Assembly: GCF_900182745.1 (NCBI RefSeq)
Contig: NZ_FXTY01000001.1
Coordinates: forward strand, 496,001 to 560,000
Origin: Shimia sagamensis
GTDB lineage: Bacteria; Pseudomonadota; Alphaproteobacteria; Rhodobacterales; Rhodobacteraceae
Direction of reading: 5' to 3'
DNA: 64,000 bases
Below are positions 20,384-26,697 of this stretch, in pieces; positions within the stretch are counted from its first letter, which is position 1, and every line of letters starts with the position of its first letter. The position numbers and the translations under genes were made by a program. The notes beneath the pieces are model-generated. The model did no database searches and was not told the DNA's origin. It saw only the letters and a program-made list of their open reading frames with translations.

Positions 20384-20411
20384 AGCCCCCGCATCGCCGG
20401 GGGCTTTTTTG
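20384..20411 (+). terminator. Rho-independent terminator of enoyl-CoA hydratase gene
   Basis: AGCCCCCG (20384-20391) and CGGGGGCT (20398-20405) form a perfect 8-bp stem with a 6-base loop followed by a T run. Confidence 0.92.
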
Positions 20412-20462
20412 TGGGGTGCGGCAAGAGGGCAGTTGACCCAGCTCCAAAACAAGCGCAGATAA

Positions 20463-20479
20463 CTGACAAAACTAGTCAG
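20463..20479. promoter_or_regulatory. Candidate iron-regulatory site (TGA-N9-TCA) upstream of MauG-like gene
   Basis: CTGACAAAACTAGTCAG is an inverted repeat (CTGAC/GTCAG) matching the TGA-N9-TCA form described as the Iron-Rhodo-box, a RirA-type site in Rhodobacterales. It lies 16 bases before the start codon. A 13-of-15 match recurs at 21704-21718 upstream of the imelysin gene. Confidence 0.65.
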
Positions 20480-20494
20480 AAATGAGACATCCCA

Positions 20495-21622
20495 ATGTAT
20501 CGCTCTCTTGCTATTGCATGTGTGCTCGCCTCCTCGCCAGCTTTGGCAGAAGACGTCCCCACCACTTTGGAAGCCCTCGGGGAACGCCTGTTCTTTGATG
20601 TGAACCTGTCGGCCAACCGCACCCAATCTTGCGCCACCTGCCATGATCCGGAACGCGGCTTTGCCGACCCGCGTGGCATGGCGTCCATTGGGGACGACGG
20701 CGAGTCACATGGAGATCGCAACGCGCCCAGCGCCGCTTATGCGGCTTTCACACCAGAGTTCCACAAAAACGCAGATGGCATTTGGACGGGCGGCCAATTC
20801 TGGGATGGCCGTGCCAACCGCCTGGAAGATCAGGCCGGCGGCCCGCCGCTGAATCCTATCGAAATGGGCATGGCTGATAAAGCCGCTGTGATCGCACGCC
20901 TTCTCGAAGATCCGATCTACACACAGGCTTTCCCGGCCCTGTTTGACGGGGATGTTCTCAGCGATCCGGCAAGCGGCTACACCGCCATGACCGACGCCAT
21001 TGCCGCCTTTGAGCGCACTGATGTTTTTGCGCCGTTTGATAGCAAATATGACCGTTTTCTGCTTGGCGAAGTCGAGCTCACCCGCGAAGAAGATCTGGGT
21101 CGCGTGCTGTTTTTCTCCGAGCAGTTCACCAACTGCAACCTGTGCCACCAGCTGGGCACAAACGCGATGGACCCGCAGGAGACGTTCTCCAACTACGAGC
21201 ACCACAACATTGGCGTTCCAGAAAACCTGGCCCTGCGCGCCCTCAACGGCGTGAAACGCGGCACCGTGGACGTCGGTCTTGCGGCCCACCCGGAGATGCA
21301 CGGCAATCCCACCCTGCGCGGTAAATTCAAAACCCCCACCCTGCGCAACGTGGCCGTCACCGGACCCTATATGCACAACGGTGTGTTTGAAGACCTGCGC
21401 ACCGTTGTGTTGTTCTACAACCAATTCAACACCACCGATCCCGCGCGCCGCACCAACCCGGAAACCGGCAAAACCTTCCGCATGCCTGCCGTACCAGCAA
21501 CCTTGGCATTTGAAGAGCTAACGCACGGCCCGGCACTCGATGATCAGCGTGTCGATGCCATTGTCGCCTTCCTCAAGACCCTAACCGATGCGCGCTACGA
21601 ACACCTGCTCGACGCGCAATAA
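20495..21622 (+). CDS. Di-heme cytochrome c peroxidase / MauG family protein
   Basis: 375-aa periplasmic protein with signal peptide (cleaved after PALA, about residue 18) and two CxxCH heme sites, CATCH (46-50) and CNLCH (214-218). The Ca-site-like region and TPTLRNVAVTGPYMHNGVFEDL near the C-terminus are typical of bacterial di-heme peroxidases. It could reduce hydrogen peroxide or, in MauG fashion, oxidise a protein or metal. Its position ahead of the imelysin cluster and behind a candidate iron box links it to iron handling, perhaps by changing the redox state of iron. That link is inferred. Confidence 0.88.
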   Translation: MYRSLAIACVLASSPALAEDVPTTLEALGERLFFDVNLSANRTQSCATCHDPERGFADPRGMASIGDDGESHGDRNAPSAAYAAFTPEFHKNADGIWTGGQFWDGRANRLEDQAGGPPLNPIEMGMADKAAVIARLLEDPIYTQAFPALFDGDVLSDPASGYTAMTDAIAAFERTDVFAPFDSKYDRFLLGEVELTREEDLGRVLFFSEQFTNCNLCHQLGTNAMDPQETFSNYEHHNIGVPENLALRALNGVKRGTVDVGLAAHPEMHGNPTLRGKFKTPTLRNVAVTGPYMHNGVFEDLRTVVLFYNQFNTTDPARRTNPETGKTFRMPAVPATLAFEELTHGPALDDQRVDAIVAFLKTLTDARYEHLLDAQ

Positions 21623-21703
21623 GGTCTATTTTCGGCACCTCTTTGAGTGCGAGGCATTCCGTCGCACTCAAAAACATACAAAATTAATAAGGATTGACGA
21701 AGT

Positions 21704-21718
21704 CGACAAAAGTAGTCA
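21704..21718. promoter_or_regulatory. Candidate iron-regulatory site upstream of imelysin
   Basis: CGACAAAAGTAGTCA differs at two of 15 positions from TGACAAAACTAGTCA at 20464-20478 and lies in a gap, 36 bases before the imelysin ATG. The shared site suggests one iron-responsive regulator for both transcripts. Confidence 0.6.
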
Positions 21719-21753
21719 GTTATGCCCGCAATTCTCAACAGGGACCGGATTCC

Positions 21754-23013
21754 ATGACTCGTACATTTTTGACCACTTCTGCGGCTGTGCTCGCACTGAC
21801 CGCCCCGGCTTTCGCCGCCAACAAAGCGGACGTCGTTGCCAACTACGCTGACATCGCCGCCGCCAAATACGAAGACAGCCTGATCACCGCCAAAACACTG
21901 CAAGCTGCCGTGAACGCGCTGATCGAAAACCCATCCGCCGAAGCGCTGCACAACGCCCAAGGCGCTTGGCTGGCCTCCCGCGTGCCGTATCAGCAGACCG
22001 AAGTGTACCGCTTTGGCAACGCTGCCGTGGATGACTGGGAAGGCAAAGTGAACGCCTGGCCACTGGACGAAGGCCTGATCGACTATGTGGACGCTGCTTA
22101 CGGTGGCCCTTCTGACGAAAACCCGCTGGCCGCGCTGAACGTGATCGCCAATGCCTCTTTCGACATCTCCGGCGCAACCATTGACGCCGCAGAAATCACC
22201 CCAGCCCTGCTGGAAAGCCTGCACGAAGCTGACGGCGTTGAAGCCAACGTCGCCACCGGCTACCACGCCATTGAATTCCTGCTCTGGGGTCAGGACATGA
22301 ACGGCCACAACCACGGCGCCGGTGACCGCCCTTGGACAGATTTCGCAGCGGGCGACGCCTGCACCGGTGACAACTGTGACCGCCGTGGCGCCTACCTGAA
22401 AGCCGCCACTGACCTGCTGGTCTCCGATCTGGAGTTCATGGCTGCTCAGTGGTCCACAGACGGCGAAGCCCGGGCAACAGTAACCGGCAACGCGGACGCT
22501 GGCATCGTGGCCATCCTAACTGGCATGGGCTCCCTGTCCTACGGTGAGCAAGCTGGTGAGCGCATGCGCCTTGGCCTGCTGCTGAACGACCCGGAAGAAG
22601 AGCACGACTGCTTCTCCGACAACACCCACAACAGCCACTTCTACGACGGCCTGGGCATCCAGAACGTCTACCTTGGTGAATACGTGCGTGTCGACGGCTC
22701 CTTGGTGTCTGGCCCATCCGTGTCTGACCTTGTGTCCGAAGTGAACGCGGATCTGGACGCAGAGCTGCAAGCCAAGCTCTCCACCACCATGATGTCGCTG
22801 GGCCGCATCAAAACCGCCGCCGAGGCAGGTTTCTCCTACGACCAAATGCTGGAACGCGGCAACGCAGCTGGCGAAGCACTGGTCATGGGTGGCGTGGACG
22901 GTCTGGTAGATCAAACCAAATCCATCGAAGCCGCGGTGACCGCACTTGGTCTGGACAACCTGGCGTTTGAAGGCTCCGACAGCCTCGACAACCCAGACGC
23001 TGTGTTCCACTAA
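21754..23013 (+). CDS. Imelysin (M75) family iron-regulated protein, COG3487 type
   Basis: 419-aa periplasmic protein with a signal peptide ending AFA|ANK. Two related helical halves are expected for imelysins. The GxHxxE motif is intact as GYHAIEFLLWGQD (169-181). Members of this group (IrpA/ICMP) are iron-regulated and thought to bind iron at the cell surface or in the periplasm; despite the M75 name, peptidase activity is doubtful. I chose ATG 21754 since it starts the signal peptide. Codon use is strongly biased, suggesting high expression. A terminator-like hairpin follows. Confidence 0.9.
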   Translation: MTRTFLTTSAAVLALTAPAFAANKADVVANYADIAAAKYEDSLITAKTLQAAVNALIENPSAEALHNAQGAWLASRVPYQQTEVYRFGNAAVDDWEGKVNAWPLDEGLIDYVDAAYGGPSDENPLAALNVIANASFDISGATIDAAEITPALLESLHEADGVEANVATGYHAIEFLLWGQDMNGHNHGAGDRPWTDFAAGDACTGDNCDRRGAYLKAATDLLVSDLEFMAAQWSTDGEARATVTGNADAGIVAILTGMGSLSYGEQAGERMRLGLLLNDPEEEHDCFSDNTHNSHFYDGLGIQNVYLGEYVRVDGSLVSGPSVSDLVSEVNADLDAELQAKLSTTMMSLGRIKTAAEAGFSYDQMLERGNAAGEALVMGGVDGLVDQTKSIEAAVTALGLDNLAFEGSDSLDNPDAVFH

Positions 23014-23042
23014 TACCAACGTCACCGACGTAAGACATGTGA

Positions 23043-23070
23043 GGGGCGGCCATCCCGCCGCCCCTTTTTT
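23043..23070 (+). terminator. Terminator-like hairpin between imelysin and DUF1111 genes
   Basis: GGGGCGGC (23043-23050) and GCCGCCCC (23057-23064) form a perfect 8-bp stem with a 6-base loop, followed by six T. Only 20 bases separate it from the next start, so it probably reduces rather than abolishes read-through. Confidence 0.8.
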
Positions 23071-23089
23071 ACTTTCCAAGGCCCCGCCA

Positions 23090-24601
23090 ATGCGACTTTC
23101 CTCCGCCACGGTCTTCTGCGCACTCTTTTCTGGCACATCCGTCCACGCACTGGATGACCGCCACCTCAACGTCGTGCCCCGCACCGACGCCGAAGCTCAG
23201 CGCATCCAAAGCGTCACCGCCGCCCCCACCGATTTTTCCAAACCGCATAGGTTTGAATCCCGCCCTGCTGGCGCCGCCACGGTCCCGGCTCGCACCGATG
23301 CCTTTGCCTTCAAACAGCCCTCCGCCAATCTCAGCAAAGAAGACGGCCTCACCTTCCGCATGGGTGAGGCGATGTTTGACAAACTCTGGGTCTCATCCCC
23401 CAGCTCCACCCTGGCCTCCGACGGCCTCGGCCCGCTGTACAACGCGCGCAACTGCCTTGGCTGCCACCAACGTGCCGGACGCGGCCACGCACCGGACAGC
23501 CCTGAAGATGACGCGCTATCGCTGGCGATCAAGCTGGCCATCCCCGGCCAACAAGGGGACCAAATTCACCAAATCGAAGATTTCCTCGCAACACGTCCTG
23601 AGCCGACCTACGGCAGCCAAATCCAGGATTTCAGCCTGCCCGGCCACCCCGCCGAAGCTCGCATTGAAGTCACCTTCGAAGACTTCGACGTCGTGTTGTC
23701 CGGCGGCGAGACCGCGACACTGCGACGCCCATCTTATGCCCTGCAAGACCTCGGCTATGGAACGCTGCACACAGACGTGATGCTCAGCCCACGCGTTGCG
23801 CCGCAAATGATCGGCCTCGGCCTGCTGGACGCCATCCCGGCCGACGACATCCTCGCAAATGCCGATCCGGATGACTCAAATGGTGACGGCATCTCTGGCC
23901 GTCCCAACATCACATGGTCGGTAGAATACCAACGCCCCATGCTGGGCCGTTTTGGCCTCAAGGCCGGCGCACCCACCCTGCGCCAACAATCCGCCGCCGC
24001 CTTTGCCGCCGACATCGGCATCTCCACACCTCTGTTTGAAGCAGGCCACGGCGACTGCACCACTGCGCAAGTCGACTGCATCAACAGCCCCCATGGCGAC
24101 GGCGACGTGCGGGTGTTTGAGGTCGATGAAACCGGTCTCGACCTTGTGACGTTCTACAGCGCCAACCTAGCCGTACCCGCGCGCCGAGATGTGGATGACC
24201 CCGAGGTGCTGCGCGGCAAAGAAGTCTTCCACACCACCGGCTGCGCCTCCTGCCACACCCCGTCCTATGTGACCCACCGGCTCAAAGATCAGCCCGCCCA
24301 AAGCTTCCAGCTGATCTGGCCTTACACCGACATGCTGCTGCACGACATGGGGCCAGAGTTGGCCGACAACCGCCCCGAAGGCCGCGCCACGGGCCAGGAG
24401 TGGCGCACACCGCCGCTCTGGGGCATTGGCCTTACCAATCAAGTCTCCGGCCACACGCAATTCCTGCACGACGGCCGCGCCCGCAATATCCTCGAAGCTA
24501 TCCTCTGGCACGGCGGCGAAGCGCAGCCTATGAGAGACACCGTGATCACCATGCCACCCGAAGACCGAGCCGCCCTCATCCGCTTCTTAGAAAGTCTCTG
24601 A
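23090..24601 (+). CDS. Di-heme oxidoreductase, DUF1111 (COG3488 'thiol oxidoreductase')
   Basis: 503-aa secreted c-type cytochrome. The signal peptide ends near GTSVHA. Heme sites are CLGCH (122-126) and CASCH (385-389). An acidic loop (NADPDDSNGDGISG, about 257-270) looks like a calcium site. WRTPPLWGIGLT and FLHDGRARN are shared with MauG-like proteins. The name thiol oxidoreductase is historical; activity is unknown. It lies between two imelysin genes, the conserved COG3487-3488-3489-3490 order, and is presumed to handle electrons for iron uptake. Confidence 0.88.
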   Translation: MRLSSATVFCALFSGTSVHALDDRHLNVVPRTDAEAQRIQSVTAAPTDFSKPHRFESRPAGAATVPARTDAFAFKQPSANLSKEDGLTFRMGEAMFDKLWVSSPSSTLASDGLGPLYNARNCLGCHQRAGRGHAPDSPEDDALSLAIKLAIPGQQGDQIHQIEDFLATRPEPTYGSQIQDFSLPGHPAEARIEVTFEDFDVVLSGGETATLRRPSYALQDLGYGTLHTDVMLSPRVAPQMIGLGLLDAIPADDILANADPDDSNGDGISGRPNITWSVEYQRPMLGRFGLKAGAPTLRQQSAAAFAADIGISTPLFEAGHGDCTTAQVDCINSPHGDGDVRVFEVDETGLDLVTFYSANLAVPARRDVDDPEVLRGKEVFHTTGCASCHTPSYVTHRLKDQPAQSFQLIWPYTDMLLHDMGPELADNRPEGRATGQEWRTPPLWGIGLTNQVSGHTQFLHDGRARNILEAILWHGGEAQPMRDTVITMPPEDRAALIRFLESL

Positions 24602-24604
24602 CCC

Positions 24605-25621
24605 ATGCGCTTGCTTGCTTTGACCACCTCACTCCTGCTTGCGCAACCTGCCTGGGCGCTGGATCCCGCCGCGCTGGTGGACACGGCAATTGACGAACAC
24701 ATCTTGCCCGGCTTCACCGCCTTGTCAGAGGCCACCGGCGCGCTCAAAAACACCGCAGCAGAAGACTGCGCCAGCAACTCCTCCGCCCTGCGCGAAGCCT
24801 TTCACGAGGGCTTTGACGCTTGGATGGCCGTCAGCCACCTGCGCTTTGGCCCCACCGAAGAGGAAGAGCGCGCCTTCTCCCTCGCCTTCTGGCCTGACAC
24901 CAAGGGCTTTACACCCAAATCGCTCTCCAAACTGATCACCTCCGAAGACCCCGCCGCATTGGACGCAGAGGCCTTCGCTGAGGTCTCTATCGCCGCGCAT
25001 GGCTTTTTTGCGCTGGAGTTCCTGCTCTATGATGAGCGCATCCAAACCCTCGGAAGTGACGCCTATCGCTGCACACTGATCCAAGCCGTCACCAACGACA
25101 TTGACCGCAACGCCAATGCCATTCTGGCGGATTGGCAAAACGGCTATGCTGAACTCATGCGCACCCCGTCAAAAGACGGCCGATACACCACCGATCTCGC
25201 CGCCGTGGCTGAACTTTTTAAAACACTCGACACCGGCCTGCAATTTAACGAAGAGGCCCGCCTCGGGCGCCCCTTAGGCACCTTTGACAAACCCCGCCCC
25301 CTGCGCGCCGAAACCCGCCGATCGGAGCGCAGCTTGCAAAACATCACCGTGTCGCTGACGTCTTTGGAGCAACTTGCCGCCATCCTCTCCGCACAAACGC
25401 CAACCCCGGCCAAATCTCTCAACGGAGCATTTTCGCTGGCCTTGGGACACGCCACAGAGTTGGAAGATGACCCTACCTTTGCTGGCGTCGCCAACATTCA
25501 GGGCCGCCTGCGCGTCGAAATCCTACAGCAATACATCGGCAACATCCGCAGCTTTGTCCTGTTAGAACTTGGCCCAGCCCTCGATGTCACCGCTGGCTTC
25601 AACGCACTGGACGGCGACTGA
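24605..25621 (+). CDS. Second imelysin-family periplasmic protein (COG3489 type)
   Basis: 338-aa protein with signal peptide (LLLAQPAWA). The imelysin motif region reads AAHGFFALEFLLYDE (about 131-145) with H132 and E138, so the His-Glu spacing differs from the first copy's GxHxxE. The rest is helical and acidic. It starts three bases after the DUF1111 stop and its TGA shares one base with the next ATG, so translation is coupled. It probably acts as an accessory metal-binding protein in the same iron pathway. Confidence 0.85.
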   Translation: MRLLALTTSLLLAQPAWALDPAALVDTAIDEHILPGFTALSEATGALKNTAAEDCASNSSALREAFHEGFDAWMAVSHLRFGPTEEEERAFSLAFWPDTKGFTPKSLSKLITSEDPAALDAEAFAEVSIAAHGFFALEFLLYDERIQTLGSDAYRCTLIQAVTNDIDRNANAILADWQNGYAELMRTPSKDGRYTTDLAAVAELFKTLDTGLQFNEEARLGRPLGTFDKPRPLRAETRRSERSLQNITVSLTSLEQLAAILSAQTPTPAKSLNGAFSLALGHATELEDDPTFAGVANIQGRLRVEILQQYIGNIRSFVLLELGPALDVTAGFNALDGD

Positions 25622-26697
25622 TGGTCACCCGCCGCCGCATGCTCGCAGGCCTTGCCGCCGCAAGCCTTCTGCCCAGCGCGGGCTGGAGCAGCGTCGGCAC
25701 ACCAGACTATCTCTCCGCCGCCCGCGCGCCCAACGGCAGCTACCTGCTCGCAGGCCTCACAGCCACTGGGGAGATCACCTTCACCATCCCGTTGCCCGCC
25801 CGCGGTCACGCTGCTGCTGCACACCCAGTACGGGCTGAGGCGGTTGCTTTCGCCCGCCGTCCCGGCACCTTTGCTTTGGTCATGGACTGCCGCGACGGTA
25901 CGGTCCTGAAAACGCTCACCGCCCCCGAAGGGCGCCACTTCTACGGCCACGGCGCGTTTTCCGCTGACGGCAGCACGCTTTTCACGTCCGAGAATGACTA
26001 TGAAGCGGGGGAAGGCATCATCGGCCTCTGGGACGTCACGCAAAACTACACCCGCATCGGTGAGTTTTCCTCCGGTGGCATTGGTCCCCATGACATCAAA
26101 CTCCTGCCAGACGGCCAATCACTTGTGGTCGCCAACGGCGGCATCGAAACTCACCCCGACATGGGCCGCAGCAAGCTCAACATCCCGGTGATGCAACCCA
26201 ATCTCAGCTATATCAGTTTGGCCGGAGGAGTCCTGGAACAGGTCGAGTTAACTGCAAGTCTGCACAAAAACTCCATTCGTCACCTCGCCGTGCGTCAGGA
26301 CGGCACGGTCGCCTTTGCGATGCAATGGCAAGGGTCCAAATCCGAAGCACCGCCGCTTTTGGGGCTGCACCAACGCGGTGAAACTCCGCACCTTCTGTCC
26401 GCGCCTGAGGCCGCCCATCGCGCCATGCAGGGCTACGCCGGCAGCGTTGCTTTTGGTGGTGAAGGAATGCTTGTGGCCATCACCTCGCCGCGCGGCAACC
26501 AGACACAAGTCTTCTGGATCGACAGACGAGAGTTGCTTGTTTCCCAAACACTAGAAGACGTCTGCGGCATCAGTACTGCGCCAACAGGCTTCTTCCTAAC
26601 CACAGGCACCGGCCTCGTTGGCCGTTTCAGAGCTAATAAACGCCAGCACCCCTTGCAATGGGACAACCATCTCATCGCAATCACGTCCCAAGCCTGA
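25621..26697 (+). CDS. DUF1513 protein (COG3490), probable Tat-exported beta-propeller
   Basis: 358-aa protein. The N-terminus MVTRRRMLAGLAAASLLPSA carries twin arginines before a hydrophobic stretch, so Tat export is likely. The body has repeated WD/NHL-like segments (GHGAFSADGSTLFTSEND, IGPHDIKLLPDGQSLVVANGG) consistent with a beta-propeller; no catalytic residues are evident. Its ATG shares a base with the previous stop. It closes the COG3487-3490 cluster. Function is unknown, but Tat export hints at folding or cofactor loading in the cytoplasm. Confidence 0.82.
   Translation: MVTRRRMLAGLAAASLLPSAGWSSVGTPDYLSAARAPNGSYLLAGLTATGEITFTIPLPARGHAAAAHPVRAEAVAFARRPGTFALVMDCRDGTVLKTLTAPEGRHFYGHGAFSADGSTLFTSENDYEAGEGIIGLWDVTQNYTRIGEFSSGGIGPHDIKLLPDGQSLVVANGGIETHPDMGRSKLNIPVMQPNLSYISLAGGVLEQVELTASLHKNSIRHLAVRQDGTVAFAMQWQGSKSEAPPLLGLHQRGETPHLLSAPEAAHRAMQGYAGSVAFGGEGMLVAITSPRGNQTQVFWIDRRELLVSQTLEDVCGISTAPTGFFLTTGTGLVGRFRANKRQHPLQWDNHLIAITSQA

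Follow-up and report, generated by a model that had tools for sequence, protein, structure and literature searches.

What does a MauG-like di-heme enzyme do at the head of an imelysin operon? The question is raised by five plus-strand genes at positions 20,495 to 26,697 of a 64,000-nucleotide stretch of the Shimia sagamensis genome (contig NZ_FXTY01000001.1; the whole stretch is hereafter called the window). They encode, in this order, a MauG-like di-heme protein, an imelysin of the ICMP/IrpA type (imelysin A), a di-heme protein of the DHOR (DUF1111) family, a second imelysin (imelysin B) and a DUF1513 propeller with a twin-arginine (Tat) type signal. The last four genes (hereafter, the quartet) and their iron control have already been published (PMC3143127, PMC4618611); what is new is the MauG-like gene. 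Our reading, to which we give a probability of roughly 40%, is that the known iron-starvation imelysin operon has been joined by an accessory MauG-family enzyme, an oxidising arm by which Fe(II) would be turned into Fe(III) for FbpA-type uptake. That the enzyme is a working part of the imelysin iron module is very probable, and Fe(II) oxidation is put forward only tentatively as its main reaction.

The five genes and their products

The source genome measures 4.5 Mb, and among named organisms it stands closest to Shimia and other Rhodobacteraceae. The open reading frame (ORF) list of the window places the five genes where a first-pass annotation, made from the letters of this DNA, had put them, and Pfam matches bear out the set. 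Proteins 1 to 5 scored 167 bits (PF03150), 285 bits (PF09375), 290 bits (PF06537), 156 bits (PF09375, for which the Pfam cut-off is 23.5 bits) and 402 bits (PF07433), all far over cut-off. Four heme sites in two proteins had been claimed and were recovered, with CxxCH at residues 46 and 214 of protein 1 and at residues 122 and 385 of protein 3, and none in the other three. Judged by eye, all five N-termini carry export signals, Sec-like in proteins 1 to 4 and twin-arginine (TRRRMLAG) in protein 5, in keeping with the proposal that the whole set is exported; as that annotation had also said, no transporter gene lies within 20,495 to 26,697. The starts at ATG 21754 (imelysin A) and ATG 23090 (DHOR) fall inside longer mechanically called ORFs and were preferred because the signal peptides begin there. 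The features are as follows.

20384..20410, plus strand: terminator-like hairpin and T-run (AGCCCCC-loop-GGGGGCT-TTTTT), found by direct sequence reading and absent from the automatic scan list
20462..20480, no strand assigned: Iron-Rhodo-box-like 19-bp palindrome ACTGACAAAACTAGTCAGA, 18.2 bits, 14 bp upstream of the mauG-like ATG
20495..21622, plus strand: MauG-like Tyr-ligated di-heme protein, 375 aa, Sec-type signal (PF03150; matches to MauG in the PDB)
21674..21692, no strand assigned: weaker iron-box-like site 5' of imelysin A, 13.9 bits
21702..21720, no strand assigned: iron-box-like site GTCGACAAAAGTAGTCAGT 5' of imelysin A, 11.7 bits, a near-copy of the mauG-like box
21754..23013, plus strand: imelysin A, ICMP/IrpA type, 419 aa, GYHAIE (GxHxxE) at residue 169 (PF09375, 285 bits)
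23041..23066, plus strand: terminator- or attenuator-like hairpin in the gap between imelysin A and DHOR, 10-pair stem with a T tail
23090..24601, plus strand: DHOR/DUF1111 di-heme protein, 503 aa, CCP/MauG fold (PF06537, 290 bits; structure model)
24605..25621, plus strand: imelysin B, IPPA type, 338 aa, GFFALE (GxxxxE) at residue 133 (PF09375, 156 bits)
25621..26697, plus strand: DUF1513 seven-bladed propeller, Tat-type signal, five invariant His (PF07433, 402 bits; structure model)

Beyond what the first-pass annotation had noticed, the front gene encodes a close relative of true MauG. Its closest solved relatives are the Paracoccus MauG chains in the PDB (393–399 bits), with only 178.6 bits for BthA, and it is 53–55% identical to MauG encoded on Paracoccus plasmids. 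We aligned 104 proteins, 4 from mau clusters, 19 encoded near imelysin genes and 81 elsewhere (100 non-mau proteins). His35, His205, Gln103, Pro107, Glu113, Thr275, Pro277 and Tyr294 are kept in all 100 non-mau proteins, and Asn66, which we take to be a Ca ligand in MauG, is kept in 80 of them. Trp199, the electron-transfer relay of MauG to the precursor of methylamine dehydrogenase (preMADH), was found in 4 of 4 mau-cluster proteins and in 0 of 100 non-mau homologues. It is replaced by a longer segment, FFS[QE]QFTN, which precedes the second heme motif; the wider pattern FF[ST]xQF[TS]NCxxCH matched 92 of the 100 non-mau proteins and none of the 4 mau proteins. Only 47 of the 100 retain the inter-heme Trp93, and BthA, which also lacks it, nevertheless forms bis-Fe(IV) (PMC6405878). 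At the sixth-ligand position of the second heme, where MauG has Tyr294 as its heme ligand (PMC7567364) and a classical cytochrome c peroxidase (CCP) would have Met or His, Tyr stands in 100 of 100.

The NCBIfam models place the protein less clearly. For TIGR03791 it scored 92.9 bits and true Paracoccus MauG 96.8, both under the cut-off of 443.85, and this model cannot decide MauG membership because true MauG fails it too. For TIGR04039 (MbnH) it reached 169.9 bits against a cut-off of 362.85, a comparison without a true MbnH control and with a related cut-off that rejects true MauG. A PHROGs search returned nothing.

Imelysin A scored 403 bits against PDB 7xrx, and its GxHxxE motif is present in 86 of 86 homologues, as are five invariant Trp (residues 72, 95, 102, 178 and 233, counted from ATG 21754). 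Imelysin B scored 44.7 bits against PDB 3pf0, and a stricter G....EF pattern was met by only 12 of its 57 homologues. Two imelysin types, GxHxxE and GxxxxE, are described in PMC3143127, the available text of which reports no specific binding of heme ligands or ferric ion by two imelysin-like proteins.

A sequence search of the PDB at E 0.001 returned no relative of DHOR. Its structure model (pLDDT 88) gave one Foldseek match at E ≤ 0.001, the gamma chain of hydrazine synthase; on realignment, the VIA Z was 15.2 to that chain and 11–15 to bacterial CCPs, MauG, MbnH and BthA, and then fell to 4.3. As modelled, DHOR is a protein of the CCP/MauG fold. The motif H[DN]G-x11-H occurs in 57 of 58 DHOR proteins with the same spacing as HNG-x11-Tyr294 in MauG (102 of 104), which makes His474, at the position of MauG Tyr294, the likely sixth ligand. 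The DUF1513 model (pLDDT 93) aligned to propellers with VIA Z of 26–29, the best of them seven-bladed, and H63, H110, H157, H221, H350 and Met191 are invariant in 48 of 48 rows. The invariant His, roughly one per propeller blade, form a candidate central metal or heme site. Hydrazine synthase (PDB 5c2v) ranked near the top for both DHOR (gamma chain) and DUF1513 (beta chain), the DUF1513 match being tied with generic propellers; a di-heme protein paired with a propeller would recall that enzyme.

The hairpin at 20384..20410 follows a gene that reads as enoyl-CoA-hydratase-like and sets the five genes apart from it, so a fresh transcription start is expected for the mauG-like gene. The automatic hairpin scan was weak by count (9 sites vs 8.2 in shuffles), and the stem at 23041..23066 was the longest listed; this hairpin could put the level of imelysin A above that of the downstream genes.

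Linkage, co-occurrence and promoter boxes

The linkage of enzyme and quartet was counted in 80 homologue loci, of which 62 had complete flanks of 9 kb; the window's own loci were not counted, and L001, L002, L103, L106, L108 and L128 were left out as copies of the window or of other loci. Quartet genes lay within 9 kb of the enzyme homologue in 13 of the 80, where a naive chance estimate gives 0.44. The gene order of the window recurs in seven linked loci; the arrangement is convergent in L008 and L063, mixed in L059 and L061 and divergent in L065, and in L082, from a gammaproteobacterial symbiont, the enzyme gene comes last in the set. Linkage spans two orders of Alphaproteobacteria and one gammaproteobacterium. 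Two genomes of the family set described below add to these: L119 (genome G166, 84% complete) has the window's order with a stop inside imelysin A, and L118 (genome G100) has an imelysin, DHOR and the enzyme gene with no recognised second imelysin or DUF1513. On the tree, the linkage state needs 8 changes, at least 4 of which are forced by well-supported branches, indicating that linkage was gained or lost repeatedly.

The identical five-gene order was also found on plasmids of Azospirillum brasilense, Azospirillum sp. TSH58 and A. argentinense. The added front gene of the first-pass annotation is both real and recurrent. In A. lipoferum and A. oryzae the enzyme gene is unlinked within the stretch examined (the survey covered 5 of 10 Azospirillum records). 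The plasmid MauG of Paracoccus lies inside mau clusters in 4 of 4 cases examined (4 of 13 records). Three unlinked homologues (L036, L045 and L058) adjoin a protein that reads like a fasciclin domain, presumably FAS1, which may be an alternative partner.

Co-occurrence was examined in a family set of 149 genomes, one per genus, in which enzyme-lacking means no match at E ≤ 1e-60. An imelysin-family match was present in 73 of them, namely in 17 of 19 genomes with the enzyme vs 56 of 130 without (Fisher p = 1.3e-4). The enzyme-bearing genomes without imelysin are G144 (77% complete) and G051 (complete). Imelysin was present in 48 of 48 genomes searched behind the 80 homologue loci (the genome of L065 not included), and DUF1513 in 6 of 6 further enzyme-bearing genomes from a class search. 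The imelysin region was read in 40 of the 56 imelysin-bearing, enzyme-lacking family genomes, and 39 of these regions contained the complete quartet; together with the five-gene order on the Azospirillum plasmids, this argues that the arrangement is not due to chance.

A profile search for the methylamine dehydrogenase subunit (PF02975) found none in the source genome; no control matched in that search, and the matches in 4 of the 149 family genomes indicate that the profile works. The loci of these matches (L113–L116, L124–L127) encode an amine dehydrogenase small subunit with no MauG homologue beside it, the nearest lying about 12 kb away at one locus (stretches of 11–20 kb), and perhaps belong to an aromatic amine dehydrogenase matured differently. 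For want of an adjacent MauG there, the mau-linked MauG references were taken from the Paracoccus plasmids.

To describe promoter motifs, a 19-bp palindromic profile (consensus CCTGACTAAATTAGTCAGG) was trained on the imelysin promoters of 40 enzyme-lacking genomes, 24 of which gave sites. At ≥10 bits, it matched 56 of 81 promoters of unlinked homologues and 10 of 19 linked promoters (several from near-identical relatives), against 20 of 556 control promoters (other ORFs of the same loci) and 0 of 4 promoters of mau-cluster MauG; background was 2.0% in random and 2.9% in shuffled stretches. This suggests that the enzyme subfamily is under the same iron-starvation control as the imelysins. The mauG-like gene of the window has such an iron-type box in its own promoter, and its 18.2 bits at 20462 are the top score of all positions in the window; the motif also occurs at this promoter in the close relatives L003–L006. 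Eight sites reach 10 bits in the 64 kb, the mauG-like box, two before imelysin A and five elsewhere, so weak sites alone prove little.

In Rhodobacter sphaeroides, RSP_1543–1548 are among the IscR-affected genes under a 19-bp Iron-Rhodo-box; they include an iron-regulated protein and a thiol oxidoreductase with two heme sites, whose own change of 0.59 fell short of the study's cut (PMC4618611). With this IscR/iron operon as counterpart and the best iron-box-like match of the window before gene 1, the iron system proposed in the first-pass annotation is very probable, and we infer that the motif is an IscR site in Shimia sagamensis. Across the source genome, the box pattern gave 33 rows vs 7 for the reversed pattern. 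A 20.1-bit site lies 43 bp upstream of the gene for an FbpA-type Fe(III)-binding protein (383 bits to PDB 1q35), and a 15.7-bit site precedes a Peripla_BP_2 binding protein gene, both of which support the motif as an iron box. Most other ranked sites precede unnamed genes or nothing obvious. The top ranked site (21.8 bits, L189:2953-2971, on contig 1 of genome G000 at about 243453) precedes an ORF, of which a 168-aa part had no Pfam match. Searches for iron permeases in the source genome gave 0 matches for the FTR1 type (PF03239; controls matched in 4 of 14) and none for the FeoB C-terminal domain (controls matching).

The iron box is not universal. The Azospirillum enzyme genes, linked or not, carry Fur-like sites instead (14–16 of 19 letters; background 0.7–3.3% per locus), and the enzyme promoter of G051, a single case, has no iron box (0.5 bits), like several homologues outside Rhodobacterales. 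A further element that the first-pass annotation had not described is TTGA-N6-TCAA, the FNR-type consensus, which 38 of the 81 unlinked promoters carry, as do 3 of the 19 linked promoters and 24 of 556 controls. Iron and FNR-type boxes occur together in 28 of the 81 unlinked promoters and neither in 15, and the window's mauG-like promoter has the iron box only. With a simple TGAC-N7-GTCA scan, signs of iron control were confined to close relatives of the window and a handful of others; an unbiased palindrome count brought out the FNR-type box instead, and the wider iron motif was seen only with the 19-bp profile. In an unseeded palindrome count of the training promoters, ATGA-type pairs came top and TGAC-N7-GTCA occurred 10 times vs 0.87 expected; since other pairs ranked top, the profile is not independent of its seed.

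Possible roles of the enzyme

In the reading we prefer, iron shortage, in many relatives probably with low oxygen as well, would cause an IscR-type repressor to release, and the five exported proteins would be made. With H2O2 (or O2 plus electrons), the enzyme would reach a high-valent di-heme state, as in MauG and BthA, and would act as the oxidising arm of a periplasmic imelysin/DHOR module. Its most likely substrate would be ferrous iron, free or held by an imelysin, and the resulting Fe(III) would be handed to the FbpA-type Fe(III) ABC importer behind a similar box. The hand-over is proposed because the source genome has no FTR1/EfeU or FeoB matches and has an FbpA gene behind the box. It would offer a route to ferrous iron for an alphaproteobacterium that lacks matches to those permeases.

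Several observations weigh against this reading. Within the stretch covered, 67 of the 80 homologue loci are unlinked, and the quartet occurs without the enzyme in 56 of 73 imelysin-bearing family genomes, which is why we call the enzyme accessory. G051 carries the enzyme and neither imelysin nor DUF1513, and the Fisher tests ignore relatedness among genera. The seed half-sites of the profile, CTGA and TCAG, were picked after both promoter sets had been seen. Besides the window's, only two ranked source-genome sites precede recognisable iron-uptake genes, and one site of 16.7 bits (L205) lies 317 bp before a gene whose product resembles elongation factor P. An FNR-type box, present in 38 of the 81 unlinked promoters, would fit a peroxidase for microaerobic conditions just as well as an iron oxidase. 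The analysis found neither a surface for iron binding nor a ferroxidase site, and H2O2 is scarce at low oxygen.

A peroxidase role is the first alternative to be weighed. The enzyme could scavenge periplasmic H2O2 as a guard against Fenton chemistry during iron uptake at low oxygen, with linkage and control reflecting timing and not a shared substrate. FNR-type control is known from bacterial CCPs, and the excess of FNR-type boxes over the 24 of 556 controls, often beside an iron box, fits this role, as does the peroxidase activity (with an artificial donor) of the Tyr-ligated BthA. MauG with its Tyr294 ligand is a poor peroxidase, however, and the specific co-occurrence and repeated linkage with imelysins would need a further reason. 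The BthA activity is reported in PMC6405878. A further point against a peroxidase is that all 100 homologues have Tyr as sixth ligand where CCPs have Met or His (PMC7567364). Expression in Leptospira interrogans points both ways: H2O2 induces the imelysin operon and also, at a separate locus, a non-Tyr CCP (PMC7567364), whereas in another study mauG1 went down while imelysin genes went up (PMC13066512). On balance we regard a peroxide guard as a possible but unlikely main role. That the enzyme is a mere passenger, with a linkage that became established by accident in a few lineages and a palindrome of the kind found in promoters generally, seems quite improbable. The many unlinked homologues, the late choice of half-sites and the unseeded ranking speak for it, but few control promoters and no mau-cluster MauG promoter reached 10 bits, and linkage recurs in several gene orders and across the lineages named above.

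Protein maturation is also rather unlikely. The enzyme would here form or adjust a metal site by oxidising Trp or Tyr in one of its partners (an imelysin, DHOR or the propeller), much as in an iron version of the copper pairs MopE/SACCP, CorA/CorB or MbnP/MbnH. This is suggested by MauG, the closest solved relative, which modifies Trp, and by CorA and MopE, which bind copper beside a Trp-derived kynurenine and whose genes are transcribed together with those of MauG-like di-heme proteins (PMC3912023). The five invariant Trp of imelysin A would be candidate targets, but they are equally invariant in the 40 enzyme-lacking genomes, where an obligatory modification would have no maker other than DHOR. 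No W, Y, H, M or C column of imelysin A, imelysin B, DHOR or DUF1513 was enriched in the enzyme-linked sets (thresholds of ≥70% in one group and a difference of >40 points; the unlinked enzyme-positive group was compared for imelysin A only), which speaks against maturation as a requirement. Five columns of Tyr or Met did pass these thresholds (two from imelysin A, three from DHOR), all of them enriched in the enzyme-free sets. Such a role must also account for the loss of the Trp199 relay in 100 of 100 and for the existence of the quartet without the enzyme. The particular case of a true MauG that matures methylamine dehydrogenase or a similar quinoprotein, and is an accidental neighbour of the imelysin operon, is favoured by the 53–55% identity and is otherwise largely refuted by the absence of PF02975 from the source genome and the loss of Trp199. 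No mau genes were read around the enzyme, against 4 of 4 Paracoccus plasmid MauG genes in mau clusters, and the iron box is absent from those four promoters; we consider this case extremely improbable.

A bolder form of the oxidising-arm reading, which we hold to be unlikely though worth stating, is that an iron-starvation-induced MauG-family enzyme activates the iron-capture module by remote oxidation of a metal-binding protein or its iron. The FFS[QE]QFTN segment would then replace the Trp199 relay as the site of both docking and electron exit, and the pair would be an iron counterpart of MopE/SACCP and MbnP/MbnH. If true, it would be a further use of MauG chemistry.

Comparison with known systems

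Imelysins are widespread and iron-regulated proteins without an agreed function, and most di-heme enzymes of the MauG family that lie outside mau operons are orphans; apparently shared control and recurrent adjacency give both families a concrete, testable partner. The mechanism had been called undescribed in the first-pass annotation, which stands for the mechanism itself but not for the quartet and its iron control. Among the matches listed in a full-text search, mostly without subscription literature or the 2006 Rodionov paper on the Iron-Rhodo-box (whose tables may include some of these genes), no paper joined imelysin and MauG/CCP in one locus, and in Leptospira the two kinds of genes are at separate loci (PMC7567364, PMC13066512).

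An EfeOB-like logic had also been proposed, and it holds as a working likeness but not as membership of EfeUOB. Both have an exported imelysin-domain protein adjoining an exported heme peroxidase in an iron context. The Shimia genome differs in having no FTR1 match, and its set has c-type di-heme enzymes in place of DyP and cupredoxin domains, neither of which was found in the five proteins (Pfam scan, E ≤ 0.001).

With MauG of the Paracoccus mau clusters, the Shimia enzyme shares Tyr294, Gln103, Pro107, Glu113, Thr275, Pro277 and both CxxCH motifs, and it differs in the missing Trp199, the FFS[QE]QFTN segment, the lack of a methylamine dehydrogenase match and the iron-type promoter box. MbnP and MbnH are a copper pair with a MauG-like di-heme enzyme. 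CorA/CorB and MopE/SACCP likewise combine a MauG-like enzyme with a metal-binding surface or periplasmic partner under metal-dependent control (PMC3912023). These pairs differ in handling copper and in having partners other than imelysins, and nothing in the Shimia set points to a modified residue. BthA of Burkholderia resembles the enzyme as a member of the CCP/MauG family outside mau operons, with a Tyr-His-ligated heme and conserved Glu, Gln and Pro, and differs in that the available text of PMC6405878 mentions no imelysin link.

The nearest systems are the imelysin operons themselves. PA4373 and RSP_1543 are, we assume, the DUF1513 proteins of these operons. PA4370–PA4373 form the Fur-regulated imelysin operon of Pseudomonas aeruginosa (PMC3143127), and the imelysin, DHOR, imelysin and DUF1513 genes of the window stand in the order and direction of that type. 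This operon and hemP-irpA-bfd-bfr-RSP_1545-1543 of R. sphaeroides have the same gene kinds and iron-responsive control (PMC3143127, PMC4618611). The Shimia set has no bfd-bfr pair inside it, as the R. sphaeroides operon does, and it is set apart from the known imelysin operons by being led by a MauG-like gene with an iron-box-like promoter of its own.

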